From: Firmicutes bacterium M10-2
Lineage (GTDB): Bacteria; Bacillota_I; Bacilli_A; Erysipelotrichales; Erysipelotrichaceae
Length of the DNA: 37,566 bases
Assembly (NCBI GenBank): GCA_000403415.2
Contig: KE159681.1
Coordinates: 454,013-491,578, forward strand
Direction of reading: 5' to 3'
Shown: positions 4,775 to 25,572 of the stretch, piece by piece
Position numbering within the stretch: position 1 is the first letter of the stretch
Layout: every line of letters starts with the position of its first letter
Made by a program: the position numbers and the translations under genes
The notes under the pieces: generated by a model
Database searches by the model: none
The model's input: the letters and a program-made list of their open reading frames with translations, nothing else
Told to the model about the DNA's origin: nothing

Positions 4775-5932
4775 GTGAAAGCAACAAAAAAAATCCGTAA
4801 ACGAAATACAATCCTTGTCAGTATTCTTGCCGCTCTGGTTGTGATCGGTATTGCCGTAGGATTATTTCTATTTTGGCCTCAGCCGAAATTCGAAGCCAAA
4901 TCAACCGTCGAACTTGCTTATGGAGATCCTGTTATCTTAGAACCGGCCCTTTTTGTCGAGTCGGATAACGACAACATTACACTTGAGAGCAGCTTGATCA
5001 GCGATAAAGAATCGTATACCTACAACAAAACGACACATCAAGTCGTTTCAAAAGGAGAAAGCACCTTAGCTCCCGGAGAATACACGATTACCTTGCGTCG
5101 CAACAACCAAGAAGTCACTTCTAAGTTGATCATTAAATCTAATGATCGGATTCAGTTCATTTCCATGCCGAAACTCATCGTTGTAGAACAAGATGCCATC
5201 GACTTTGATCTTTCCAATTACTTTTTGGCCATTGCGACAAAACCGATTCATCTGGAATGTCCTGACATCGATATTTCCAAACCGTCCGAGCAAACCATAA
5301 CAATCAAAGCAATATGCGAAGACAAAACCGCACTTGAAGCAAGTGTGAATGTGAAAGTAATCACTGCAGCCGATGTCGCCAACGGAGAAACTCTTTCATC
5401 CATGGTCAATGGCGAAGTTCCGCTCAGCCAAACAACATGGGATGCTCTCGATTCCGGAACATTAACCTCGATTTCGATTGCCGATCAGCCAAAACAAATC
5501 CAATCCGTCTTGCTGCAGGCAAGCAAAGGAACGTTGGCCAACGAAATCTCTTTTAAAGAACCGAAAGATAAAAAATTCCTGAATCCGAAAACATTTACGC
5601 CAAAAGCAAAAGAAGAAACAAAAAGCACCACACCTGAATCGCAAGAAGAAACGGAAACTCCTGATCCACAGGACACGACTCCGATTGTGCAAACTCCAAT
5701 CTATAATTACACCCAGCCGAGTCTGCCGGTTACCAATCCGGGACAAACTGAACCTGAACAACCAAGCAATCCTGGTCCGACAGAACCGGAACAACCAAGC
5801 GAGCCTGGAACGACAGAGCCGGAGCAGCCAAGCAACCCGGGTCCGACAGAACCGGAACAACCAAGTCAGCCGGAGCAGCCAAGCGATCCGGGACAAACGA
5901 TCGTTCCGATCGATCCGACGCCTCAAGAATAA
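4775..5932 (+). CDS. membrane-anchored surface protein with Pro/Glu-rich repeat tail
   Basis: A 385-aa protein. The GTG at 4775 is chosen because GGAGGG lies 8 nt upstream; upstream in-frame starts would overlap the promoter. A basic N-terminus (KATKKIRKRN) leads into one membrane segment (about residues 13-34, ending LFLFWPQ), so the rest is probably outside the cell and held by an uncleaved anchor. Residues about 40-215 look like two beta-rich Ig-like modules (for example APGEYTITLRRNN, then SEQTITIKAI). A charged Lys/Glu linker follows, then a repeat tail of about 60 residues built on EPEQPSNPGPT. There is no LPxTG motif. It could span or bind the cell wall; binding partner unknown. Confidence 0.8.
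   Translation: MKATKKIRKRNTILVSILAALVVIGIAVGLFLFWPQPKFEAKSTVELAYGDPVILEPALFVESDNDNITLESSLISDKESYTYNKTTHQVVSKGESTLAPGEYTITLRRNNQEVTSKLIIKSNDRIQFISMPKLIVVEQDAIDFDLSNYFLAIATKPIHLECPDIDISKPSEQTITIKAICEDKTALEASVNVKVITAADVANGETLSSMVNGEVPLSQTTWDALDSGTLTSISIADQPKQIQSVLLQASKGTLANEISFKEPKDKKFLNPKTFTPKAKEETKSTTPESQEETETPDPQDTTPIVQTPIYNYTQPSLPVTNPGQTEPEQPSNPGPTEPEQPSEPGTTEPEQPSNPGPTEPEQPSQPEQPSDPGQTIVPIDPTPQE
5741..5899 (+). repeat. imperfect tandem repeats coding for the Pro/Glu tail
   Basis: Four to five degenerate copies of a unit of about 33 nt encode EPEQPSNPGPT-like repeats. The units differ mostly at third codon positions, which suggests selection on the peptide. Copy number is likely to vary between strains. 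Confidence 0.8.
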
Positions 5933-5936
5933 GAAA

Positions 5937-5974
5937 AAGAAGCGAAATCATTCATTCGATTTCGCTTCTTTATT
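5937..5974. terminator. shared convergent terminator (surface protein / nth)
   Basis: A 13-bp stem (5937-5949 with 5958-5970) and an 8-nt loop, with A and T runs on either side, so it serves both genes. Its right arm lies in the last codons of nth. Confidence 0.9.
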
Positions 5975-6631
5975 TTTCTTCAATCGTTCTTTCTCGCTTT
6001 TCTTATACGCTTCAAAAGCATCTTTTTTACAAAAAGAAACAAAAGGGCATTCTTCGCATTTCGGATTTCTTGCCGTACAAAAATAACGGCCGAAAAAGAT
6101 CATATCATGATGTCCCTGATTCCAGCGCTTACGATCGATTTTGCGCTTAAGCTTCTCTTCGACTTTTTCCACACTGTCATTGAATTTGGCAAGGCCAAGC
6201 CTTTTGCTCACACGCTCCACATGGGTATCGACCGCAAAACTCGGAATATCAAACGCAACGCTGCGGACGACATTTGCTGTTTTGCGTCCAACGCCCGCCA
6301 ACGACTGCAGCTCCTTATAACTTGAAGGAACCACTCCCCGAAAACGCTCTTCAAGATCTTTCGCCATGGAAATAATATTTTTTGCTTTTGCGTGGTACAA
6401 ACCAATCGTACGAATATAGCTTTCGACATCCTCTATATCGGCATTTGCCAAATCTTCGGCACTCGGGTATCTTTTAAACAGCGCCGGAGTGACCCGATTG
6501 ACCGAAGCATCGGTCGTTTGGGCCGAAAGAATGACCGCCACAACAAGCTGAAAATCATTTTCGTGATATAATTCGCATTTTGCATCCGGGAAAATTTTCT
6601 CGATTTCATCCAAAATTTCATTACCGCTCAT
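5948..6631 (-). CDS. nth: endonuclease III (DNA glycosylase/AP lyase)
   Basis: A 227-aa base-excision repair enzyme that removes oxidised pyrimidines and nicks abasic sites. It shows LSAQTTD (helix 2), the helix-hairpin-helix LAGVGRKTA with the catalytic Lys, the catalytic Asp in AVDTHVERV, and the [4Fe-4S] loop C-x6-C-x2-C-x5-C near the C-terminus (CTARNPKCEECPFVSFC). The C-terminus carries an extra basic tail of about 20 residues. The ATG at 6631 overlaps the dnaD stop codon (TGATG), indicating translational coupling. The dnaD-nth pairing is conserved in Bacillus. Confidence 0.97.
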   Translation of the reverse strand: MSGNEILDEIEKIFPDAKCELYHENDFQLVVAVILSAQTTDASVNRVTPALFKRYPSAEDLANADIEDVESYIRTIGLYHAKAKNIISMAKDLEERFRGVVPSSYKELQSLAGVGRKTANVVRSVAFDIPSFAVDTHVERVSKRLGLAKFNDSVEKVEEKLKRKIDRKRWNQGHHDMIFFGRYFCTARNPKCEECPFVSFCKKDAFEAYKKSEKERLKKNKEAKSNE

Positions 6632-7173
6632 CAACGAACCCCGCTTTCAATATCTTCTGTTGTCAGGCCCTTGTTGTTCCAGGAAATGAGCACATTCTCA
6701 ATATAAGTCAAGTTCCGCTTATTGTAAACCGACGCTTCATTTAATGCGCAAATCACTTGTCTTTCCGAGAATTTTTCCGCAAGATCGAGAATTTTCTGCA
6801 TTTCCTGAGGACTTAAATCCCGACCAAATTCATCTTCGAATTCCGAAATCAGGCTTTTCGAAAGACTTTGACCAACCTTTTGGCTGTTCTTGACCAATCC
6901 ATCCAAGCGAAAAACGACCTTTCCGTTGGCAAAATCAATGGTTAAATATCCTTTTTTCGAAAGAATCTGAAAAATCGTATCCACTTCTTCTTCACTCATC
7001 TTTGTCTTTAGCGCAAACTCTTCTGTCGAAATCGCAAGATCGTGCGTATTGTAATGCGCAATCAGCAGCACCACCAAAGCTTCTTTGGCATCCAGCGTCA
7101 AATTTTCCAAATTCGTAAAGATCCAGGCGCATTGATCCACCCAAGGTGCCGACCAATCAAAATTTTGTGCCAT
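6631..7173 (-). CDS. dnaD: DnaD-domain replication initiation protein
   Basis: A 180-aa protein with an N-terminal winged-helix (DDBH1-like) region (about residues 20-95, LTLDAKEALVVLLIAHYN) and a C-terminal DnaD/DnaB_2 domain (about 110-175), including the signature region YNKRNLTYIENVLISWNNKG (YxxxNxxYIxxILxxW). In Bacillus, DnaD acts with DnaA, DnaB and DnaI in loading the replicative helicase. The site before ATG is TAGGGGATA. It lies between ypmB-like and nth genes; the aspB gene found between ypmB and dnaD in B. subtilis is absent here. Confidence 0.93.
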   Translation of the reverse strand: MAQNFDWSAPWVDQCAWIFTNLENLTLDAKEALVVLLIAHYNTHDLAISTEEFALKTKMSEEEVDTIFQILSKKGYLTIDFANGKVVFRLDGLVKNSQKVGQSLSKSLISEFEDEFGRDLSPQEMQKILDLAEKFSERQVICALNEASVYNKRNLTYIENVLISWNNKGLTTEDIESGVR

Positions 7174-7183
7174 TTTTTATCCC

Positions 7184-7651
7184 CTACCTTTCATATACTC
7201 GTGAAAACGTATCATAATCGAGCAGCAGCATTTTTTTCGAATCGATGATCTCGTAACAAGGACTGTTGTATCCGAATGTTAATTGAACCGTTTCCGGCTC
7301 CATGCCATATTGTTCCTGGGCGATTTTTCGAGCCTTTTCATAATCCAAGGTCGCGATATCTCTTGTCGTGATTTCATCGAATTTCTGGTCGAACCAATAC
7401 AATGTATCTTCCGTATACCCTTGATATGTCACATAATCGAATATATTTTTTTCAAGACCTTGTATGCCGGGCACCTTTTCTTCGATCTTCTCGTATGCAT
7501 TCGCAAGCTGTTCGTCATGAATCCTTGCCGGACCGCTAATGAACAATGCCCATAAGATTGCGAGCAGCAAAACCAGAACGACCGCTAAAGCAACCGTTGT
7601 CGGCAAGCCATAATATCTTCCTTTTATCTTCTTTGATTTTTCATTTGCCAT
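7184..7651 (-). CDS. YpmB-like membrane-anchored protein (DUF5590)
   Basis: A 155-aa protein with a basic cytoplasmic start, one membrane segment (about residues 18-40, VALAVVLVLLLAILWALFI) and an extracellular domain with the PepSY/DUF5590-like pattern ARKIAQEQYGM followed by beta-strands. Assignment as YpmB-like rests on this architecture plus location directly upstream of dnaD-nth, as in Bacillus; the function of YpmB is not established. The ATG at 7651 is chosen because an extended -10 (TGCTATAAT) ends exactly 6 nt upstream; there is no ribosome binding site, so the mRNA is probably leaderless. Confidence 0.75.
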   Translation of the reverse strand: MANEKSKKIKGRYYGLPTTVALAVVLVLLLAILWALFISGPARIHDEQLANAYEKIEEKVPGIQGLEKNIFDYVTYQGYTEDTLYWFDQKFDEITTRDIATLDYEKARKIAQEQYGMEPETVQLTFGYNSPCYEIIDSKKMLLLDYDTFSRVYER

Positions 7652-7657
7652 GGACTC

Positions 7658-7666
7658 ATTATAGCA
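7658..7666 (-). promoter_or_regulatory. extended -10 of leaderless-type promoter (ypmB-dnaD-nth)
   Basis: TGCTATAAT on the minus strand, then 6 nt, then ATG. It partly overlaps the T tract of the mtnN terminator, so ypmB-dnaD-nth is a separate transcription unit. Confidence 0.7.
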
Positions 7667-7689
7667 CAAAAAAGAAGAGGCAAACCTCT
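7666..7689 (-). terminator. terminator after mtnN
   Basis: AGAGG/CCTCT stem with a 4-nt loop followed by TCTTTTTTG on the minus strand, directly after the mtnN stop codon. Confidence 0.65.
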
Positions 7690-7690
7690 C

Positions 7691-8368
7691 CTAATTTATT
7701 GCGCACCAAGCATTGATCACATTCGCCGCCTGTTCGCTTGCCATTTTTGTAAATTTCGAAAATTCCATCGGATTGTCGTCATGACACGCAATATCCGATA
7801 ACGTACGCAGCACTAGAAAAGGAACTTGAAAGGCGTCAGCCACTTGTGCGATCGCGCCACCTTCCATTTCAGAGCATGTGCTCTGAGCGAACCGTTTCAT
7901 CAAACGATTAAAATCTTCTTTTCTTGCCATAAATAAATCTTGGGTTGCTACCGCTCCGACATGATACGGAATATTCAGATTTTCGGCAATGCGAACTGCT
8001 TTTTCCACCAATTCTTCCCGGACCGGAAAACGCAAGCCGATTCCTTCTTGTCCGTCAATGGGCGACGTATCGAAATCCGCTTGAATGACTTCATCGGAAA
8101 TGACGAGATCGCAAACATTTTGTTCTTGTTTCAAGCCTCCGGCCACTCCGACATTGATGATCATATTCAATTCAGGCAGTTGACATAAGATGGTGGTCGC
8201 CATTGCTGCATTGACCTTTCCTACCCCGCTTAAACAAGCGGCTACTTGCTCGTTATGAATCGTGCCAAAATGAATTTGTGTCGTACCGATAAGACGCTTC
8301 GATTGGTTTTCCGTATATTTTAAAACTTCCTGAAGCTCCGATTCCATCGCACAAATAATACCTAACAT
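7691..8368 (-). CDS. mtnN: 5'-methylthioadenosine/S-adenosylhomocysteine nucleosidase
   Basis: A 225-aa cytoplasmic nucleosidase that cleaves adenine from MTA, SAH and 5'-deoxyadenosine for methionine salvage and removal of SAH. The N-terminus IICAMESE supplies the first catalytic Glu; NVGVAGGL, the purine/ribose-binding SEMEGGAIAQVA (Glu) and the catalytic Asp in RTLSDIA are all present. Length is normal. It is the last gene of the long housekeeping operon, 6 nt after the methyltransferase gene, with GAGGT before its ATG. The partnership with a SAM-dependent methyltransferase, which makes SAH, is sensible. Confidence 0.95.
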   Translation of the reverse strand: MLGIICAMESELQEVLKYTENQSKRLIGTTQIHFGTIHNEQVAACLSGVGKVNAAMATTILCQLPELNMIINVGVAGGLKQEQNVCDLVISDEVIQADFDTSPIDGQEGIGLRFPVREELVEKAVRIAENLNIPYHVGAVATQDLFMARKEDFNRLMKRFAQSTCSEMEGGAIAQVADAFQVPFLVLRTLSDIACHDDNPMEFSKFTKMASEQAANVINAWCAIN

Positions 8369-16691: not shown

Positions 16692-17951
16692 TTACATTTC
16701 CTCGCTTTCTATACGAATTGTTTTTGCGTATTCTACATCTTTCTTTTTCAGGATCACTTGTTCCATTTCCCCAGGCGTCAAAATCTTTTTTTGCCGATGA
16801 AAGATACATCGATCATCCGCCCACACATAAATGGCACCGTCTTTTAATACCTTTCCTACCCGAAAGCGGATTACTTGAAGATCATCCATGCGTTTCGGAT
16901 CGATCTTGGCAGGGACACAATAACGTACAACCCCTTTTGTTTCGATCTCAATCTCCGTTTCCTTTTTCGGTAATGTATTCAAAACGTATTGGGCCGCTTT
17001 GATTCCGGCATGCTCGGCTTCCCGGGATACAAAATCCACAAGATCGTGCACGTGCAAAACATTTCCGCAAGCAAATATCCCTTCTACATTCGTTTCAAGC
17101 GATTCATCCACGATTGGACCATGGGTGATATCATGGATTTGTATACACGCTTTTTCGGACAATTCGTTTTCGGGAATCAGTCCGCAGCTCAACAGCAGCG
17201 TATCGCATTCGATGGTTTCTTCGGTTCCGGATATCGGATGGCGATCCTTATCCACTTTTGCGATTGTAACCTTTTTTACCCTCTCTTTTCCCTCAATGTT
17301 CGTAATCGTATGGCTGAGCTTTAAAGGAATATCGAAATCGTCCAAACATTGGACAATGTTTCGCTTCAGTCCTCCGGAATAAGGCATGATTTCGACGACC
17401 GCATGCACGTTGGCTCCCTCCAGACGCATTCTTCTTGCCATGATCAAACCGATATCTCCTGATCCAAGAATGACCACATTTTTTCCCGGCATCAATCCGT
17501 CGATGTTGACAAGTTTTTGAGCCGTTCCCGCACAGTAAATCCCTGCCGGACGATATCCCGGAATATTCAAAGCTCCTCTTGGGCGTTCGCGGCATCCCAT
17601 TGCTAAAATAACGGCTTGTGCCTGTATGCGCTGTACTCCGTTTTGATTGATAAAAGTGATATTTTTCTTATCATCCAAATCAATGACCATTGTATTAAGC
17701 AGATAATCGATTTTTTCGTGTTCGATTTGTTCAATATACCGGGCCGCATATTCGGGACCGGTCAGTTCTTCATGAAATGTATGCAGTCCGAAGCCATTGT
17801 GAATACATTGATTCAATATCCCGCCAAGCTGTTCATCTCTTTCGAGAATCAATAAATCCTGAACACCGTTTTTTCTTGCGGCAAGCGCGGCAGCAAGTCC
17901 TGCAGGACCTCCGCCAATCACTACGAGTTGTTTTTTCTTTGCCTGTTCCAT
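16692..17951 (-). CDS. NAD(P)/FAD-dependent oxidoreductase of the GlpA-like/DUF1667 module
   Basis: A 419-aa flavoprotein of the Pyr_redox_2 family (COG0446). The FAD site is VVIGGGPAGLAAA (about residues 10-22), ILERDEQLGG follows, and LGSGDIGLIMARRM is the NAD(P)H-binding motif. EGIFACGNVLHVHDLVDFV is the second FAD motif. The second of two close ATGs (17951) is preferred because AAGGA is 8 nt upstream; the first is only 2 nt from it. Translation is coupled to the end of the preceding flavoprotein gene. It probably acts in one complex with its two neighbours, moving electrons between NAD(P)H and the substrate-oxidising subunit. Confidence 0.9.
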   Translation of the reverse strand: MEQAKKKQLVVIGGGPAGLAAALAARKNGVQDLLILERDEQLGGILNQCIHNGFGLHTFHEELTGPEYAARYIEQIEHEKIDYLLNTMVIDLDDKKNITFINQNGVQRIQAQAVILAMGCRERPRGALNIPGYRPAGIYCAGTAQKLVNIDGLMPGKNVVILGSGDIGLIMARRMRLEGANVHAVVEIMPYSGGLKRNIVQCLDDFDIPLKLSHTITNIEGKERVKKVTIAKVDKDRHPISGTEETIECDTLLLSCGLIPENELSEKACIQIHDITHGPIVDESLETNVEGIFACGNVLHVHDLVDFVSREAEHAGIKAAQYVLNTLPKKETEIEIETKGVVRYCVPAKIDPKRMDDLQVIRFRVGKVLKDGAIYVWADDRCIFHRQKKILTPGEMEQVILKKKDVEYAKTIRIESEEM

Positions 17952-17953
17952 AC

Positions 17954-19378
17954 TCATATTCCTTCTTTGTTTTCGGCAACAATGTATTCGCTGCCCGGAT
18001 TCGCTTTTCGAATTTGATCGGCAGAAACCCGATTTGCTTTTTGCAAAATATCCATAACTTTCGGAAGGCAGAAACCACCTTGACACTTTCCCATGCCGGG
18101 CCTTACTCTGCGCTTGATGCCATCCACGCTTGTTGCCGGAATGGAGCGTGAGCACGCTTCTTTGATTTCTCCTTCTGTAATTGTTTCGCAGCGGCAGACG
18201 ATCACTCCGTAAGCCGGATCTTTTTCAATCAATGCGTTCCATTGTTCGGGACTTAATTTTCTGCATGAAGAAAATCCCTGACGAAACGGCAAATAGTCAG
18301 GATCGGGCTTCAAAGAAAGATCTTCGACAATCATTTGAGCAACCATTTCTCCGATTGCCGGCGCACTTGTAAGTCCGGGCGATTCGATCCCGGCCACATC
18401 AATCCAGCCTTTGCCGCAACGCTCGATGATAAAATCGTTCCGATCGGATACAGCCCTCAATCCGGAAAAAGAAGTAATCACATGATCATAAGGTATATCG
18501 GATAGGGTCCGGAAAGCTTTGCGGCGAATTTGTTCCAGACCATCCTGACTTGTGGTCGTATCTTCCTTATTTTCGATGTCTTCGGCTGTCGGCCCAATCA
18601 GGATATTTTCATGGACGGTCGGAGTCACCAGCACACCTTTGCCAAGTTTTGTCGGCAGCTGAAACAGCACCGTCGATGTAAGATCTTTTGCTTCATGGTC
18701 TAAAAGAAAATATTGTCCTTTTCGCGGCGTAATCGTAAACGAGTCCTTAAAAACGAGTTGATGAACTTGATCGGCATACACTCCGGCCGCGTTGACGATA
18801 TATTTTGTTTCGTATGCCCCGTTCACGAGCCATCCGTCTTCCGTTTTTCTGATCGAAGCAACCGGTTCGTCAAAGTGAAAGCACACACCGTTATCGGCAG
18901 CATTTTCAGCGAGCGCGATATTCAATCCGAAAGGGCAGACGATGCCGGCACTTGGCGCATACAAGGCGCACACGACATCACAATTTACATTCGGTTCGTG
19001 CGCTAAAATTTGTTCTTTTTCCCAAATTTCCAATCCGACCACCCCGTTGGCTTGTCCTTGATCAAACAAAGCCCGGATCGTTTTTCTTCCTTCTTCCTCA
19101 AAACAGAGAACGAGCGATCCGATTTGTGCATAGTCAAACGAGAGCTCTTCGGATAATTTTTTCATCATCGCATTTCCTTTAACATTCAGCTTGGCTTTCA
19201 GAGTGTTCGGCTTTGCATCATATCCGGCATGAACAATTCCGGAATTTGCTTTTGATGTTTGCGAGCAAACATCGCTTTCTTTTTCCATGACGAGCACGTC
19301 GGCTTTTGTTTTCGCAAGTTCACGTGCGATTGCGCTGCCGCTTACCCCTGCGCCAATGATCAATACATCCACTTTCAT
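17954..19378 (-). CDS. FAD-dependent oxidoreductase with C-terminal BFD-type [2Fe-2S] domain (GlpA/LhgO-like)
   Basis: A 474-aa protein. The N-terminal DAO domain has VDVLIIGAGVSGSAIAREL, VMEKESDVCSQTSKANSGIVHAG and the typical INAAGVYAD-like VNAAGVYAD; it resembles glycerol-3-phosphate dehydrogenases and L-2-hydroxyglutarate oxidases (COG0579). The C-terminal 90 residues form a bacterioferredoxin-associated-ferredoxin-like domain with CRCE and GMGKCQGGFC cysteines for a [2Fe-2S] cluster. The start at 19378 (MKVDVLII) is used because upstream in-frame codons lie in the promoter. Likely substrate is glycerol-3-phosphate or a 2-hydroxyacid; glpK and glpF are not in view, so this is unsettled. 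Confidence 0.9.
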   Translation of the reverse strand: MKVDVLIIGAGVSGSAIARELAKTKADVLVMEKESDVCSQTSKANSGIVHAGYDAKPNTLKAKLNVKGNAMMKKLSEELSFDYAQIGSLVLCFEEEGRKTIRALFDQGQANGVVGLEIWEKEQILAHEPNVNCDVVCALYAPSAGIVCPFGLNIALAENAADNGVCFHFDEPVASIRKTEDGWLVNGAYETKYIVNAAGVYADQVHQLVFKDSFTITPRKGQYFLLDHEAKDLTSTVLFQLPTKLGKGVLVTPTVHENILIGPTAEDIENKEDTTTSQDGLEQIRRKAFRTLSDIPYDHVITSFSGLRAVSDRNDFIIERCGKGWIDVAGIESPGLTSAPAIGEMVAQMIVEDLSLKPDPDYLPFRQGFSSCRKLSPEQWNALIEKDPAYGVIVCRCETITEGEIKEACSRSIPATSVDGIKRRVRPGMGKCQGGFCLPKVMDILQKANRVSADQIRKANPGSEYIVAENKEGI

Positions 19379-19449
19379 AAATACCTCTTCTTTTTTTGTA
19401 ACCGCTTTCTTAAGAAAATCATTGTACCATATTTTATAAGACGAAACAA

Positions 19450-19478
19450 AAAAAAGAGACGAACAAATGTTCATCTCG
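19450..19478 (-). terminator. terminator after the aldo/keto reductase gene
   Basis: A 10-bp stem with one wobble pair (GAGATGAACA/TGTTCGTCTC), 2-nt loop, and eight T residues on the minus strand. The stem includes the last codon and stop of the gene. Confidence 0.85.
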
Positions 19479-20613
19479 ATTCAAAATGATTGGCGACATC
19501 TTTGAGATACTCAATGATCGGCAAATGCTGCGGACAGACACTTTCGCATTGCCCGCATGCGATACAATCGCTCGCTTTGCCGAACTTTTGCGACAGACGA
19601 TCGTAATATTCGCCTTGAGGAGTCCAACCTTTTTCAGCTGCTTCCTGAAGGTCAGCATTGTACAACGAAAAATATTTTGGAATATTGATATGCATCGGGC
19701 ATCCGTCCGTGCAATACGAACATCCTGTGCATGGTACCGCAATGCTTTCGTTGATCGCATCCGCTGCCTGAAAAACAAGCTGTTCTTCCTTTTCGCAAAG
19801 AGGAACAAACTCTTCCATATACGAAATGTTATCTTCCAATTGCGTTTGATTGCTCATACCGGAAAGCACCATCGCAACCCCTTCCTGGCTGGCTGCAAAG
19901 CGAATGGCCCAGCTTGGAATCGAAGCATTGGGTGCATATTGCTTCATTGCCTGTTCGGCTTTTTCCGGAAGTTTCGCCAAGGTTCCGCCTTTGACAGGTT
20001 CCATGACGATCACAGGTTTTCCATGTTTTTTCGCTACTTCCAAGCATTCTTTGGATTGAATGGCCGGACTGTTCCAATCCAAATAATTGAGCTGAAGCTG
20101 TACGAATTCCATTTCAGGGTGGGCACTCAACACTTCATCCAGCACATCGGCTGTATCATGAAAGGAAAATCCAATGTGTTTGACAAGGCCTTTTTCCTTT
20201 TTATCGGCAATCCAAGCGAAACAATCAAGGTCGGTATATTTTTCGAAATGATCTTTCCCCATATCATGGAGCAAGTAATAATCGAAATAATCGACTCCGG
20301 TCTTACGTAGCTGCTCGTTGAAAATCCGATCCCGATCTTCTTTTGTGTTAAGAAATCCTGCATGAAGTTTTGTTGTCAAAGTATACGAGTCGCGTGGATG
20401 ACGTTCGACAAGCGCTTTACGGGCTGCATTTTCGGATTCGAACCCGCAATACATCCATGCGGTATCAAAATAAGTAAACCCTTTTTCCAAAAACGTATCG
20501 ACCATCTGACACGTTTTTTCCAAATCGATGCTTGCCGCATCATCCGGATCGGTCAATGGCAGGCGCATCAAACCGAAACCTAATTTTTTCGATGATGTGA
20601 ATAATGGTTCCAT
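19471..20613 (-). CDS. aldo/keto reductase with C-terminal ferredoxin domain
   Basis: A 380-aa protein. Residues 1 to about 280 are a TIM-barrel aldo/keto reductase: FGLMRLPL, the Asp-Tyr region FTYFDTAWMYCGFESE, KLHAG, and DYYLLHDMG with the catalytic His. Residues about 290-370 hold two Cys clusters of the 4Fe-4S type, CTGCSYCTDGCP and CIACGQCESVCP. Such hybrid reductases are common in anaerobic Firmicutes and may use reduced ferredoxin or link NAD(P)H to it; their substrates are mostly unknown. AAAGGA precedes the ATG. It is a single gene with two repeated operator-like sites upstream. Confidence 0.92.
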   Translation of the reverse strand: MEPLFTSSKKLGFGLMRLPLTDPDDAASIDLEKTCQMVDTFLEKGFTYFDTAWMYCGFESENAARKALVERHPRDSYTLTTKLHAGFLNTKEDRDRIFNEQLRKTGVDYFDYYLLHDMGKDHFEKYTDLDCFAWIADKKEKGLVKHIGFSFHDTADVLDEVLSAHPEMEFVQLQLNYLDWNSPAIQSKECLEVAKKHGKPVIVMEPVKGGTLAKLPEKAEQAMKQYAPNASIPSWAIRFAASQEGVAMVLSGMSNQTQLEDNISYMEEFVPLCEKEEQLVFQAADAINESIAVPCTGCSYCTDGCPMHINIPKYFSLYNADLQEAAEKGWTPQGEYYDRLSQKFGKASDCIACGQCESVCPQHLPIIEYLKDVANHFESR

Positions 20614-20710: not shown

Positions 20711-20729
20711 AAATTTCCGGCTATGCAAG

Positions 20730-20763
20730 CCAAAAATAAAAGAAGCTGAATTTATCAACTTCT
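20730..20763 (-). terminator. terminator of the murF-ddl-alr-membrane operon
   Basis: On the minus strand, GAAGTTGA/TCAGCTTC (one wobble) with a 5-nt loop, then TTTTATTTTT. Confidence 0.7.
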
Positions 20764-20766
20764 TCA

Positions 20767-21783
20767 TCAAATTAAATTGTTGAAAATCGGATATGTTTCC
20801 TTGGCACGAACAATAATCGAAGCAAACAGCTGCGATAAAGCCAATGTCGCAAAATACACAACAAGATTGGCGTTAGGCATGACAAGGAGCAACACCTTCA
20901 CGAATAAAATATGCGAAGTATAGATCAGCAGCGAATCGTAGCGCATGATCGTATATTGTTTTCGATATGGAATCCGGACAGCCAATAAAGCATTGACCAA
21001 AAAGTATGTGGCCGGCACAAGCATCAAGAACATCGAACTGAGATCATACATGATCCCCAGCCGAATATACAACGTTACTTCCAGACAAAGAAGGATAAAC
21101 GAGATCAAGAATGCGCTCAAGCTCGCTTTCACCTTCAGTCTTCTTGTTCTTGCCAGAAGCAGTCCGAGTGCCAAATAAATCGGTCCGAAAAACAATCCGT
21201 TCCTTGCGGTGACGATCGTTTTCGTAAAAAATCCGTATAAGATCGAAACATAAGGCGTATTTTCCCATATCGGAGCATATACATTGATCACGTATCCGAT
21301 CAAATAAAGAATCAAGGAAATCTTTAACGTAAAGCTCAATCCTTTTCTCCTATAGCATTCGTATACGATAAACATTCCCACGATCAAAGAAGGCAAAAAC
21401 CATAAATGATAATAGCTTCCTGTCATAAAGAAGTCGCGGATGTACGAAAAAATATCCATGAACGAAAATCCGGCAGATGCATAGTTCCAAATAGTATACG
21501 GAAGATAAATGACCGACCAGATCAAATACAGCTTTCCGATCCGCACTATGTAATGACGAAAATGATGTTCGTTCTCGCTCTCGTCCTTGCTCCATTTGCG
21601 AAAGAAAAAATATCCGGAAACCGTAAAATAAAAAGGTACGGCCAAACGACATACAGTTTGGATAAAGTACGTATTAAACGTTTCCGAAATGCCGACAAAC
21701 GGATACACATGAATGCATACGACCAAAAGAGCTGAAATATACCGAGCAATATCAATTGCCGCAAATTGTTTTTTTCCCCTCAT
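20767..21783 (-). CDS. membrane acyltransferase-family protein resembling the membrane domain of VanT
   Basis: A 338-aa protein with about 10 membrane helices, of the Acyl_transf_3 (COG3274) type. Elements such as VVCIHVYPF, CRLAVPFYFTVSGYFFF, YYHLWFLPSLIVG and TARNGLFFGPIYLALGLLL match, from memory, the N-terminal membrane half of the VanT serine racemases. In VanT this half is thought to help take up L-Ser for the racemase half; many other family members acylate envelope sugars. The gene starts 13 nt after the VanT-like racemase gene and is last in the murF operon. The ribosome binding site is TAAGGGGATA, 2 nt before ATG. A plain acyltransferase role remains possible. Confidence 0.8.
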   Translation of the reverse strand: MRGKKQFAAIDIARYISALLVVCIHVYPFVGISETFNTYFIQTVCRLAVPFYFTVSGYFFFRKWSKDESENEHHFRHYIVRIGKLYLIWSVIYLPYTIWNYASAGFSFMDIFSYIRDFFMTGSYYHLWFLPSLIVGMFIVYECYRRKGLSFTLKISLILYLIGYVINVYAPIWENTPYVSILYGFFTKTIVTARNGLFFGPIYLALGLLLARTRRLKVKASLSAFLISFILLCLEVTLYIRLGIMYDLSSMFLMLVPATYFLVNALLAVRIPYRKQYTIMRYDSLLIYTSHILFVKVLLLVMPNANLVVYFATLALSQLFASIIVRAKETYPIFNNLI

Positions 21784-21796
21784 TTTATCCCCTTAT

Positions 21797-22951
21797 TTAC
21801 CTTTTTCTTTTTTCAAGACGTGGCATACGTGCAGTAATTCGAGTCAATGTTTCGTTATTGATCGTCTTTGCCAGCCGAGAAACACGATCAATCGTCAAAC
21901 GATGCCCGTTTTCTTCACCTACAAAACAAACCACATCGCCTTCTTTGACATTTTCGACATCGGAAACGTCAATCATACACTGATCCATACAAATATTTCC
22001 GACCAGTTCGCAAAGCTGACCGTTAACCAGCACCTGCACACCACAATTTGACAGTAGCCGCGGCAAGCCATCCGCATATCCGATCGAAACGGTCGCGATC
22101 TTGGTATCTTTTTGCGCAATAAAATGACGTCCGTAGCTTACGCTTTCGCCCGGCTTAAGCCATTTCACCAAGCTGACATTGGCATAAATCGATAAAATCG
22201 GAATAAAGTCCGGCTCGCTTTCGATTTCGATCGCATCATCGCTGGTCACACCCATATACAAAAGTCCGGGACGACAGTACTCATAGCCGAGATCTTTGTA
22301 GTTCAAGATCCCGTAACTGTTTTGTATATGGCGAACCCCCGGATCGATTCCTTCGTTTTTCAAACGATTGATCGCTTCATCAAACAATTCAATTTGTTTT
22401 TGGGTAAATTGTCTGGATTCTTCGCCAAGATCATCGCTGACCGGAAAATGGCTGAATATTCCCTCCACGCAAAGATTCGGCAACGTATACGCTTCCTTTA
22501 ATTCCTCAAAGCATTGATGATCCGGCTGATAAACGATGCCTGTCCGGTTCATTCCGGTATCCAGTTTTGCATGAACACGCACTTTTGTATTGTGTTCTTT
22601 GGCAAATGCATCCAGCTTTTTTGCGTAATCCAAAGAAACAAGCGACTGGATCAAATGATAGGCCACAAGCTGATCGAAATTTTTCGGAGGAGTATACCCC
22701 AAAATCAGAATTTCGTCATGGATTCCTCCACTTCGAAGTTCGATGGCTTCATCCAAGCTCGACACACCGAAAAAACGCACACCGGCTGCCTGCAAAGCTT
22801 TGGCGCATTGCACAGCACCAAGCCCATATGCATTGGCTTTGACGATTCCCATGATTTTTGTATCGCCGACAAGTTTTTCGACTTCTTTTACATTGTGCGC
22901 AATTGCGTTGTAATCAATCTCGCACCATGCCCGTGTATATGGAGTTAACAT
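21797..22951 (-). CDS. alr: alanine/serine racemase (PLP), VanT racemase-domain-like
   Basis: A 384-aa fold-type III PLP racemase. PLP-Lys is K38 in VKANAYGLG, and the second catalytic base is Y273 in VSYGRHF. It would make D-Ala (or D-Ser) for peptidoglycan in the cytoplasm. Several stretches resemble the VanT racemase half more than standard Alr: ILILGYTPPK, HIQNSYGILNY with YCRPGLLYMG, and VSIGYADGLPRLLSN. The usual Alr pattern has HLANSA in place of HIQNSYG. The ATG is preceded by AGGTAAG and overlaps the ligase gene by 7 nt. D-Ala versus D-Ser preference cannot be decided by eye. Confidence 0.9.
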   Translation of the reverse strand: MLTPYTRAWCEIDYNAIAHNVKEVEKLVGDTKIMGIVKANAYGLGAVQCAKALQAAGVRFFGVSSLDEAIELRSGGIHDEILILGYTPPKNFDQLVAYHLIQSLVSLDYAKKLDAFAKEHNTKVRVHAKLDTGMNRTGIVYQPDHQCFEELKEAYTLPNLCVEGIFSHFPVSDDLGEESRQFTQKQIELFDEAINRLKNEGIDPGVRHIQNSYGILNYKDLGYEYCRPGLLYMGVTSDDAIEIESEPDFIPILSIYANVSLVKWLKPGESVSYGRHFIAQKDTKIATVSIGYADGLPRLLSNCGVQVLVNGQLCELVGNICMDQCMIDVSDVENVKEGDVVCFVGEENGHRLTIDRVSRLAKTINNETLTRITARMPRLEKRKR

Positions 22952-23997
22952 GCACTTACCTGACGCTCCATGGCCAGAGCGATCAAACGATCAATCAAAT
23001 CACTGAATGAAAGACCGGCTGCCTGCATCATCGATGGATAGCGCGAAGTCGCCGTAAATCCGGGAATCGTATTCAATTCGTTCAAAATGATTTCCCCATC
23101 CTTTGTCACAAACATATCGACACGTGCCAAGCCCGTACAACCCATCGTTTGGTACGCTGCTTTGGCAAGCATTTGCGCCGATTCGAACAATCTTGGTTCC
23201 AAACGGGCAGGGCAGTGAATTTCAGCACCCTTCATGGCATATTTCCCCTCGAAATCGAAGAAGGCACTTTCAATTTCGATCTCGTCTACGCTGCCTGTTT
23301 CAATATGATCGTTTCCGATGACGGCACATCCGATTTCAAAACCGTCGATTGCTTTTTCGACAAGGATCTTTCCTCTTCCGTCATAGAAGAACGCGTCCTT
23401 GCACGCTTCTTCAAACTGTTCCTTGTTTTCTACAAAATGCACGCCATAGCTGCTTCCTGCATTGCAAGGTTTTACGATCCACGGCAGCGGGATCTTTTCT
23501 TCGATTTCTTCGAATGTCGGCTGCGACTCTCTTTTTTTCAGACAAACATAATCCGCACAAGGGATTCCGGATTCATCGCATAAAATGTGCATGATTTCCT
23601 TATCCATACACATGGCCGACGAAAGAATATCGCATCCCACATAATGGATGTTAAGCAGTTCGCACATTCCCTGCAAAGCGCCATCCTCACCGTTTTTTCC
23701 ATGCAATATCGGGAAAATGACATCAAGCGGAATAAAAATCTCATTATCCACATCATAGACGCCTCTATGCACCCATGCGCAAGGTCTTACAAACTGTTCT
23801 TGTTTCCATTCATCGTGTTCGATCGCTTCGATCGGTCCTTCGTAAAGAAAAAAGTGACCTGTCTGATCGATTGCGATGCATGTTATATCGTAATTTTCTT
23901 TGTGTATTTGATGCAAAAAGCTTCCGGCCGAATGCAAAGATACAGAATATTCACTGCTTTGACCGCCAAAGACGACCCCTATTTTTAATTTAGACAT
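22945..23997 (-). CDS. ddl: D-alanine--D-X ligase of the VanG-like group
   Basis: A 350-aa ATP-grasp ligase joining D-Ala to D-Ala or D-Ser. VVFGGQSSEYSVSLHSA, PILHGKNGEDGALQG, GCDILSSAMCMDKE and NELNTIPGFTATSRYP are conserved binding-site segments. FFDFEGKYAMK occupies the omega-loop, with a Glu-x-Lys-Tyr pattern as in Ddl and VanG but not the VanA/B type. Many segments match the VanG D-Ala-D-Ser ligase from memory (HGKNGEDG, VDEIEIESAFFDF, IHCPARL). The ATG at 23997 is used because GGAGG is 8 nt upstream. It overlaps murF and alr. Specificity needs testing. Confidence 0.93.
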   Translation of the reverse strand: MSKLKIGVVFGGQSSEYSVSLHSAGSFLHQIHKENYDITCIAIDQTGHFFLYEGPIEAIEHDEWKQEQFVRPCAWVHRGVYDVDNEIFIPLDVIFPILHGKNGEDGALQGMCELLNIHYVGCDILSSAMCMDKEIMHILCDESGIPCADYVCLKKRESQPTFEEIEEKIPLPWIVKPCNAGSSYGVHFVENKEQFEEACKDAFFYDGRGKILVEKAIDGFEIGCAVIGNDHIETGSVDEIEIESAFFDFEGKYAMKGAEIHCPARLEPRLFESAQMLAKAAYQTMGCTGLARVDMFVTKDGEIILNELNTIPGFTATSRYPSMMQAAGLSFSDLIDRLIALAMERQVSAC

Positions 23998-25357
23998 TTT
24001 TTGATCCTCCATTTAGCTGTGCGACGATAGTATCCATCCCCATCGCACGACTTCCTTTAATACATATCACAACATCTTCATCCAATAACGGCTGAAGACG
24101 ATCTTCTATTTCTTCTTTTGTTGCAAACCAATTTCCGCCAAACGCATCTGCGGTGTGTTTTGATAACGGTCCATACGCAAATAAAAGGTCAACCCCTTTT
24201 TCTTTCGCATACTTTCCGATTTCTGCATGCAGCTGCTGTTCCTGCTCTCCTAAATCGAGCATATCTGCCAATACAGCAATATGTTTTTCTCCCGGCAGCT
24301 CCATCAGCGTATCAATCGCCGCTTTGGCACTTTCCGGATTCGATTTATAAGAATCATCCAAAATTTTTGCTTTTTTCACGTTCAGAAGCTGAGTGCGCAT
24401 TTTTGTCATTTGCAGACATGACAAACCTTTCAGCACAGCTTGATCGCTCAAGCCTTCGCTTTTTGCAGCCATGATACATGGCAAAGCATTCATTGCCTGA
24501 TGATCGCCTAAAGCGTGCAGCACAATCTCGTCTTTCATGATCGATGTCATGAAACGGATGCTGTCGGATTCATAAGCAATATCCGATAGGATCCGGGCTT
24601 GTGCTTCTTTTCCGAACGATTCGATCTTCTTATGCGGATCCGGCTTCCTTTCGGAAAGCACTTCATCAATTTCCGGACAATCCTTATTGTAGATAAAAAG
24701 CCCATTGGGTTTTAATCCATCGTATATTTCGCATTTTGCGTCTGCGATTTGTTTTTTGCTGCCGAGATTTTCCATATGTGCCGATCCGATCGTGGTGATC
24801 ACTGCGATATCCGGCGAAGCAATCGCGCAAAGTTCGGCAATTTCTCCTTTGTTTTCCATTCCCATTTCCAAGATCGCATATTCGACATCTTCATCGAGAT
24901 CGAGAATTGTCAAAGGCATCCCGATTTCATTGTTGCGGTTGCCTATTGTTTTCTGCGTCTTTTTCTCTTGAGAAAAAATACTGTACATCATATCTTTACA
25001 GCTTGTCTTTCCGTTCGATCCTGTGATTGCGATCACTTTCACGTCCAAAGACATTAAATAAGCGTGTGCCAACCGGGCAAGTGCTTTTTGCGTATCATCG
25101 ACCAAGATGATCGGCAAACATGTCGGATACGGCGTATGATCTTTTTGCCAAAAGGAAAGAACAGCTCCGTCTTTTGCTGCCTGTTCAACAAATGAATGCC
25201 CATCGACACGTTGGCCGATCAAAGGAATGTATAAATTTCCTTTCCGGATCTTGCGAGAATCGATCTCGACTCCTTGAACCATTGTGTGTTTATCGTAGTT
25301 TCCGACGATCTCTTGTTCCATAAACTGACCGATCTGTGAAATTGTCTTATTGATCAT
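23990..25357 (-). CDS. murF: UDP-N-acetylmuramoyl-tripeptide--D-alanyl-D-alanine ligase
   Basis: A 455-aa Mur ligase that adds the D-Ala-D-Ala (or D-Ala-D-Ser) dipeptide to the UDP-MurNAc-tripeptide in the cytoplasm. Domain 1 has VQGVEIDSRKIRKGNLYIPL; the ATP-binding loop is ITGSNGKTSCKDM (near residue 110); NRNNEIGMPLTIL and EMGMENKGEI follow, and the C-terminal domain holds ILDDSYKSNPESAKAAID. The ATG at 25357 has GGAGG 12 nt upstream. It leads the operon and feeds directly on the product of the next gene. Confidence 0.95.
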   Translation of the reverse strand: MINKTISQIGQFMEQEIVGNYDKHTMVQGVEIDSRKIRKGNLYIPLIGQRVDGHSFVEQAAKDGAVLSFWQKDHTPYPTCLPIILVDDTQKALARLAHAYLMSLDVKVIAITGSNGKTSCKDMMYSIFSQEKKTQKTIGNRNNEIGMPLTILDLDEDVEYAILEMGMENKGEIAELCAIASPDIAVITTIGSAHMENLGSKKQIADAKCEIYDGLKPNGLFIYNKDCPEIDEVLSERKPDPHKKIESFGKEAQARILSDIAYESDSIRFMTSIMKDEIVLHALGDHQAMNALPCIMAAKSEGLSDQAVLKGLSCLQMTKMRTQLLNVKKAKILDDSYKSNPESAKAAIDTLMELPGEKHIAVLADMLDLGEQEQQLHAEIGKYAKEKGVDLLFAYGPLSKHTADAFGGNWFATKEEIEDRLQPLLDEDVVICIKGSRAMGMDTIVAQLNGGSKNV

Positions 25358-25385
25358 ATATAATTTGAGCCTCCATTTGGAATTA

Positions 25386-25394
25386 ATTATAGCA
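25386..25394 (-). promoter_or_regulatory. extended -10 of the murF operon promoter
   Basis: TGCTATAAT on the minus strand, 28 nt before the ATG, with a leader long enough to hold the GGAGG site. No clear -35. The 190 bp from here to the RNA promoter at 25588 is AT-rich with two TTAT-N-CACATA-like repeats and no gene. Confidence 0.65.
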
Positions 25395-25572
25395 CAGTGC
25401 AAGGAGTCACACCGAAAAAATTCAATTCAATAAACATTACAAAAAATGAATGAAAATGATTACCGAAAAAGTCATAAAAATTAGAAAAAAGAGTCCTTTT
25501 TTGGTTTTTTTCCCCACAAATCACCTAAATTATCGTTATTCACATATTTTCCCATAATAATCACATAAATCA

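Follow-up and report, generated by a model that had tools for sequence, protein, structure and literature searches.

A murF operon with a VanG-like ligase and a VanT-type racemase: a candidate housekeeping D-Ala-D-Ser pathway in Erysipelotrichaceae

The stem peptide of peptidoglycan is held to end almost universally in D-alanyl-D-alanine (D-Ala-D-Ala), the target of vancomycin, while the D-alanyl-D-serine (D-Ala-D-Ser) end is held to be a resistance add-on. A stretch of 37,566 nucleotides from Firmicutes bacterium M10-2 (contig KE159681.1; hereafter the window) raises the question of what such add-on enzymes are doing in a housekeeping setting, as it encodes, in one operon with murF, a ligase and a racemase resembling VanG and VanT, followed by a membrane protein of the AT3 type that resembles the N-terminal half of VanT. 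An initial annotation had suggested that these genes form a D-Ala-D-Ser pathway, and had been careful to leave the D-Ser specificity as an inference from sequence, which is how we still regard it. We consider it probable that this is a housekeeping D-Ala-D-Ser peptidoglycan operon which has replaced Ddl and Alr, and not an acquired resistance cluster.

The operon and its genome

All four open reading frames (ORFs) are intact, closely spaced and on the minus strand, in agreement with the initial description of four coupled genes. The murF gene (23990..25402, an ORF beginning with TTG) overlaps the ligase gene (22945..24012), which in turn overlaps the racemase gene (21797..22951), and 13 nt separate the racemase gene from that of the AT3 protein (20767..21783). 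MurF translation probably starts at the ATG at 25357, which is preceded by GGAGG. The second Met codon of the ligase ORF (~23997), five codons after the ORF start, is also preceded by GGAGG and may be the true start of the ligase, the residues of which are numbered here from the ORF start at 24012. MurF, the UDP-MurNAc-tripeptide–D-Ala-D-X ligase, contains the Pfam Mur ligase domains and scored 408 bits with TIGR01143, above the cut-off of 288.6. Every motif segment quoted in the initial annotation was found in the ORFs, and its family labels (MurF, VanG-like, VanT-like, VanT N-terminal half) were upheld by NCBIfam and Pfam matches.

The genome measures 2.4 Mb and is 99.8% complete, and the window sits on one of its contigs, of 634 kb. 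Searching this genome with PF07478 returned, besides the operon ligase, only CarB, once for each of its halves (judged to be CarB from a 1074-aa frame), and searching with PF01168 returned only the operon racemase and one short YggS-like protein; the look for a second ddl and a second alr that had been advised therefore found neither. The genome encodes a single Aminotran_4 protein, of the length of the branched-chain transaminase IlvE. As there is one ligase, one Alr-type racemase and one Aminotran_4 protein of IlvE length, the stem dipeptide and D-Ala must, barring unknown enzymes, come from the operon enzymes. No VanX/Peptidase_M15 protein was found in the genome by profile search, and the three VanY-family proteins, encoded on other contigs, appear to be secreted or membrane-anchored, unlike the cytoplasmic VanXY. 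VanXY and VanRS, noted earlier as missing from the window, were not identified beside the operon either, VanRS not having been sought genome-wide.

In the pathway that we propose, the racemase would convert L-Ser to D-Ser and, because it is the only racemase, would also make D-Ala from L-Ala. The VanG-like ligase would join D-Ala and D-Ser, and MurF would add the resulting D-Ala-D-Ser to the UDP-MurNAc-tripeptide, so that the stem would end in D-Ser and bind vancomycin more weakly. VanXY would be dispensable because the genome has no competing Ddl, and VanRS would not be needed, since expression is presumably constitutive. The AT3 protein would be a transmembrane acyltransferase-type protein equivalent to the N-terminal half of VanT, to which we assign no substrate.

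Active-site residues, trees and distribution in the family

The ligase is a Ddl-fold ATP-grasp enzyme with the Pfam domains Dala_Dala_lig_N and Dala_Dala_lig_C, and VanG (4fu0) is the solved structure nearest to it both in sequence and in fold. We performed an unbiased column scan for positions common to the ligases of the operon and of VanG clusters and absent from DdlA-type ligases or the Ddl of the family, which yielded eight: H142, G228, G240, D243, F252, I265, R324 and M328. VanG 4fu0 matches both residue and number at seven of them; by simple numbering the exception is position 142, the chain being shifted there by two. Three of the eight, D243, F252 and R324, are what we take to be the D-Ser determinants of VanG named by Meziane-Cherif et al. 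(2012). The operon ligase also has Y258; VanA shares its Arg and Phe but is without the KY pair, which argues against a D-lactate ligase. VanA presumably has His at the position of Y258.

In the ligase tree the operon ligase fell apart from the Ddl of its own family (support 100) and outside the VanG clade. The approximately unbiased (AU) test allowed, without proving it, a single clade of all R-type ligases (those with R324, VanG included) against other ligases (p 0.51). VanG was the only D-Ser type included in this tree, VanC, VanE, VanL and VanN being left out because no sequence above their curated cut-offs turned up among 395 genomes from the class. The description of the ligase as VanG-like thus stands as regards active-site residues and separation from Ddl, while its grouping with VanG is allowed by the AU test and goes no further. 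The racemase was placed in the clade that contains VanTG, apart from the ordinary Alr of the family (support 96), as expected from its initial description as VanT-like. Its N366 aligns with the Asn of VanTG (4ecl) where Alr carries Tyr, a site which we take to be Asn696 of Meziane-Cherif et al. (2015). A firm position of both enzymes among ordinary Ddl and Alr, the outcome named at the outset as speaking against a D-Ser pathway, was not what the trees gave.

We surveyed 171 genomes of the family, each at least 90% complete. Two genomes (G002, of the same genus, and G018) gave zero matches for every query, even YggS or CarB, and were set aside as apparently unreadable and not as lacking the genes. 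An R-type VanG-like ligase was the only ligase in ~37 of the 171 genomes, from 16 genera, and an L-type operon ligase the only one in eight, from two genera; in ~29 an ordinary Ddl accompanied a VanG-like ligase, and the remainder mostly had Ddl only. These counts are approximate, as types were set by score, and by residue only for fetched sequences (at least one in most genera). Several of the two-ligase genomes have a single racemase, of VanT type. The order murF–ligase–racemase–AT3 was found in Holdemanella, Faecalicoccus, Faecalitalea, Absicoccus, Catenisphaera, Floccifex, Allobaculum and Amedibacillus dolichus, while other genomes have murF–ligase–racemase and no AT3. The same gene order recurs in dozens of related genomes, an association far beyond chance; the nearest named genome is that of Erysipelotrichaceae bacterium OPF54, of the same genus, with a ligase 88% identical. 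Enzymes regarded as add-ons are apparently the only ones of their kind across common gut genera, the walls of which may bind vancomycin poorly by default, a direct prediction for the collection strains Holdemanella biformis DSM 3989 and Faecalicoccus pleomorphus DSM 20574.

In some of the surveyed genomes MurF and the VanG-like ligase form one ORF of ~785-818 aa (L063, at 5633-8056, L066, L073, L106, L107, L203, L214 and L221). The holders include Allobaculum mucilyticum (a complete genome), an Ileibacterium metagenome-assembled genome (MAG) and genera g9 and g10, and in the ligase tree the fused forms do not group together but lie in two or more distinct positions.

Ligase R324 and racemase N366 occurred together in 46 murF operons; two had the Arg without the Asn, seven had neither and none had the Asn without the Arg. 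The L-type branch has lost D243, F252, R324 and N366, and also Q102 of the racemase, which shows that both states are compatible with this operon and that ligase and racemase changed jointly on one occasion. We therefore do not claim statistical co-evolution of the two residues, there being only one independent pair. The L-type loci (L108, L109, L215, L216, L220 and L222-L224, in genera g24 and g27) have L324/Y252 in the ligase and Asp, Ser or His at the N366 site of the racemase; judging from these residues, they have apparently gone back to D-Ala-D-Ala or else acquired a third specificity. Two loci, L072 (a Holdemanella MAG) and L107, combine R324 in the ligase with Tyr at the N366 site, and in genus g226 (L230, L231) a divergent R-type ligase accompanies a racemase with Pro at that position and a longer ORF, of ~611-619 aa, in genomes which also have an ordinary Ddl.

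One genus, g59 (L196-L199 and L225-L229), is probably Erysipelothrix. Its genomes, mostly complete and of 1.7-2.4 Mb, encode one ligase, which bears R324/F252/D243 and lies in a murF–ligase–racemase operon, and in addition to the operon racemase an ordinary-looking second Alr. Erysipelothrix rhusiopathiae has a vancomycin minimum inhibitory concentration of 32 mg/L by a mechanism that has not been established, and the D-Ala-D-Ala ending of its stem was assumed from annotation (PMC9637936). The g59 operon is therefore a candidate, and testable, cause of the resistance to vancomycin that is intrinsic to Erysipelothrix and so far unexplained.

The AT3 protein and alternative readings of the operon

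The membrane protein matches the N-terminal half of VanT (NCBIfam, 142.6), the membrane subunit of VanT-L and Pfam Acyl_transf_3. Its predicted model (predicted local distance difference test score, 86) gave no significant match in a plain Foldseek search; aligned with VIA-align, it reached Z 17.1 over 295 residues with human HGSNAT bound to acetyl-CoA, with unrelated rows at 6.8 or below. The modelled protein is thus predicted to have the transmembrane acyltransferase (TmAT) fold. Conserved alike in the AT3 proteins of the operon and of VanT are the His of the first transmembrane helix (H25), the YHLW motif at Y125-H126-L127-W128, R194, E235 and H291. The AT3 half of VanT has been argued to have an unrecognised role, and mutations giving high-level resistance to fall there (PMC12423673).

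It is nonetheless conceivable, if rather unlikely, that the AT3 gene is merely a neighbour with no role in the pathway, since it is missing from 17 of the 47 R-type operons, the probable Erysipelothrix ones included. It follows the racemase gene in the other 30 and in none of the seven L-type murF operons, a contrast that is confounded by shared descent, and in van clusters the same type of protein, with identical conserved residues, is the N-terminal half or the partner of VanT.

Also unlikely, in our view, is that the operon yields ordinary D-Ala-D-Ala, or a mixture consisting mostly of it, the Van-like residues being ancestral and strict use of D-Ser having evolved later in the mobile VanG and VanT. 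Several points weigh for this reading or against the D-Ser pathway. The best NCBIfam model for the ligase is VanG, at 404.8 bits, under the cut-off of 495 that genuine clusters of VanG type from other parts of the class do pass, and the score of 357.4 with the D_ala_D_ser model does not reach its cut-off of 520, whereas broad Ddl subfamily models are passed; identity is ~43% to VanG and ~39% to DdlA, a small margin. Likewise, the racemase passes TIGR00492 alr and scores best with the VanT-G catalytic subunit model, at 428.5, under its cut-off of 460. At least one ordinary Alr also has this as its best model, so that the model name proves little, and we dropped the best match as proof that the racemase is VanT. 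Possession of the operon does not in itself conflict with D-Ala-D-Ala, as one branch has the Ddl-like L324 and Y252, and the joint presence of R324 and N366 is not statistically independent support because it reflects a single phylogenetic loss. By the title of Arias et al. (2000), as cited in PMC9866002, VanT-type enzymes also racemise alanine. Moreover, a sole ligase must also suit penicillin-binding proteins and D,D-carboxypeptidases. Our literature searches, which covered few subscription journals, gave neither biochemical work nor cell-wall analyses for this genus, nor any report of D-Ala-D-Ser in Holdemanella and its relatives.

Against ordinary D-Ala-D-Ala synthesis, the residues that separate the two ligase groups agree with VanG and not with DdlA, and the linked racemase retains the VanT Asn nearly wherever the ligase retains the Arg. 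The existence of genomes with both Ddl and the operon ligase would also be hard to explain if both enzymes made D-Ala-D-Ala.

An acquired, inducible vanG-type resistance cluster lying beside murF is very improbable, and we rejected it in spite of the kinship of ligase and racemase to VanG and VanT, because this gene order is shared by many genera of the family, no VanRS or VanXY was identified adjoining the operon, the genome has neither VanX nor another ligase to bypass, and the true van-type clusters of related families belong to a different clade and have the order ligase, often a gap of ~0.7 kb, and after it AT3 followed by the racemase, as two genes or as a fusion.

A far-reaching extension of the housekeeping D-Ala-D-Ser pathway may also be imagined, to which we give little credence: that a large share of Erysipelotrichaceae normally build their wall wholly from D-Ala-D-Ser precursors, that on the outer face the AT3 protein transfers an acyl group from acetyl-CoA to the D-Ser-ended precursor or to some other acceptor in the envelope, as an overlooked working part of such walls and of VanT, and that the operon is the housekeeping relative from which the mobile VanG and VanT were assembled. 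The operon bears in any case on the origin of VanG and VanT and on the role of the neglected AT3 half of VanT.

Promoter and terminator scans of the operon region gave no signal above chance; directly 3' of the AT3 gene lie two weak terminator-like stem-loops (20713..20765, minus strand), as many as chance would give for the region. The upstream neighbour of the operon encodes a HIT-like protein, recognised by eye. On the 3' side of the AT3 gene lies an aldo/keto reductase that carries an Fe-S domain at its C-terminus (19471-20613) and, beyond it (16692-19474), two FAD oxidoreductases with a BFD [2Fe-2S] domain, similar to a glycerol-3-phosphate dehydrogenase pair.

Comparison with known systems

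The closest characterised ligase and racemase are those of the VanG cluster of Enterococcus faecalis BM4518 (4fu0, 4ecl), which have the same specificity-site residues. VanG-type clusters, however, are inducible, include VanXY and VanRS(U), coexist with Ddl and place the membrane domain before the racemase, and none of these features was found here. The VanC clusters of Enterococcus gallinarum and Enterococcus casseliflavus resemble the proposed pathway in that D-Ala-D-Ser is made intrinsically and constitutively through a ligase and VanT. VanC strains retain Ddl and hence require VanXY_C (PMC4790382), whereas the genome described here has neither a second ligase nor VanX.

In VanT the membrane half is fused to the racemase or encoded before it; here AT3 has a gene of its own, which follows that of the racemase. 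In VanL the membrane and racemase parts of VanT are likewise separate proteins (NCBIfam models), and several van-type clusters of related genomes also encode them as separate genes. The operon differs from VanL in that the racemase precedes AT3 and follows murF and the ligase, so that both order and genomic setting are different. The initial picture of a split, reversed VanT is thus right about separate genes with the racemase first, but the split is not new, given VanL, and the locus should be seen as a murF operon that has been conserved and not as a van cluster that has been rearranged.

The precedent initially invoked, Clostridium innocuum, holds as far as it is summarised in PMC8888209: serine-ended precursors made through two chromosomal genes are attributed there to David et al. 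(2004). C. innocuum, which is intrinsically resistant to vancomycin, belongs to the same broad group and resembles the proposed pathway in its serine-ended precursors; what differs from that report is that in the present genome no other such enzymes accompany the D-Ser-type ligase and racemase, which lie in a murF operon with AT3. With ordinary murF, ddl and alr genes the operon shares the housekeeping setting and the status of sole ligase and racemase, and it differs from them by its Van-type specificity-site residues. The kind of pathway and the split VanT were thus already known, and what is new is the sole-ligase status, the murF operon setting and the breadth of occurrence, which includes the probable Erysipelothrix genus.

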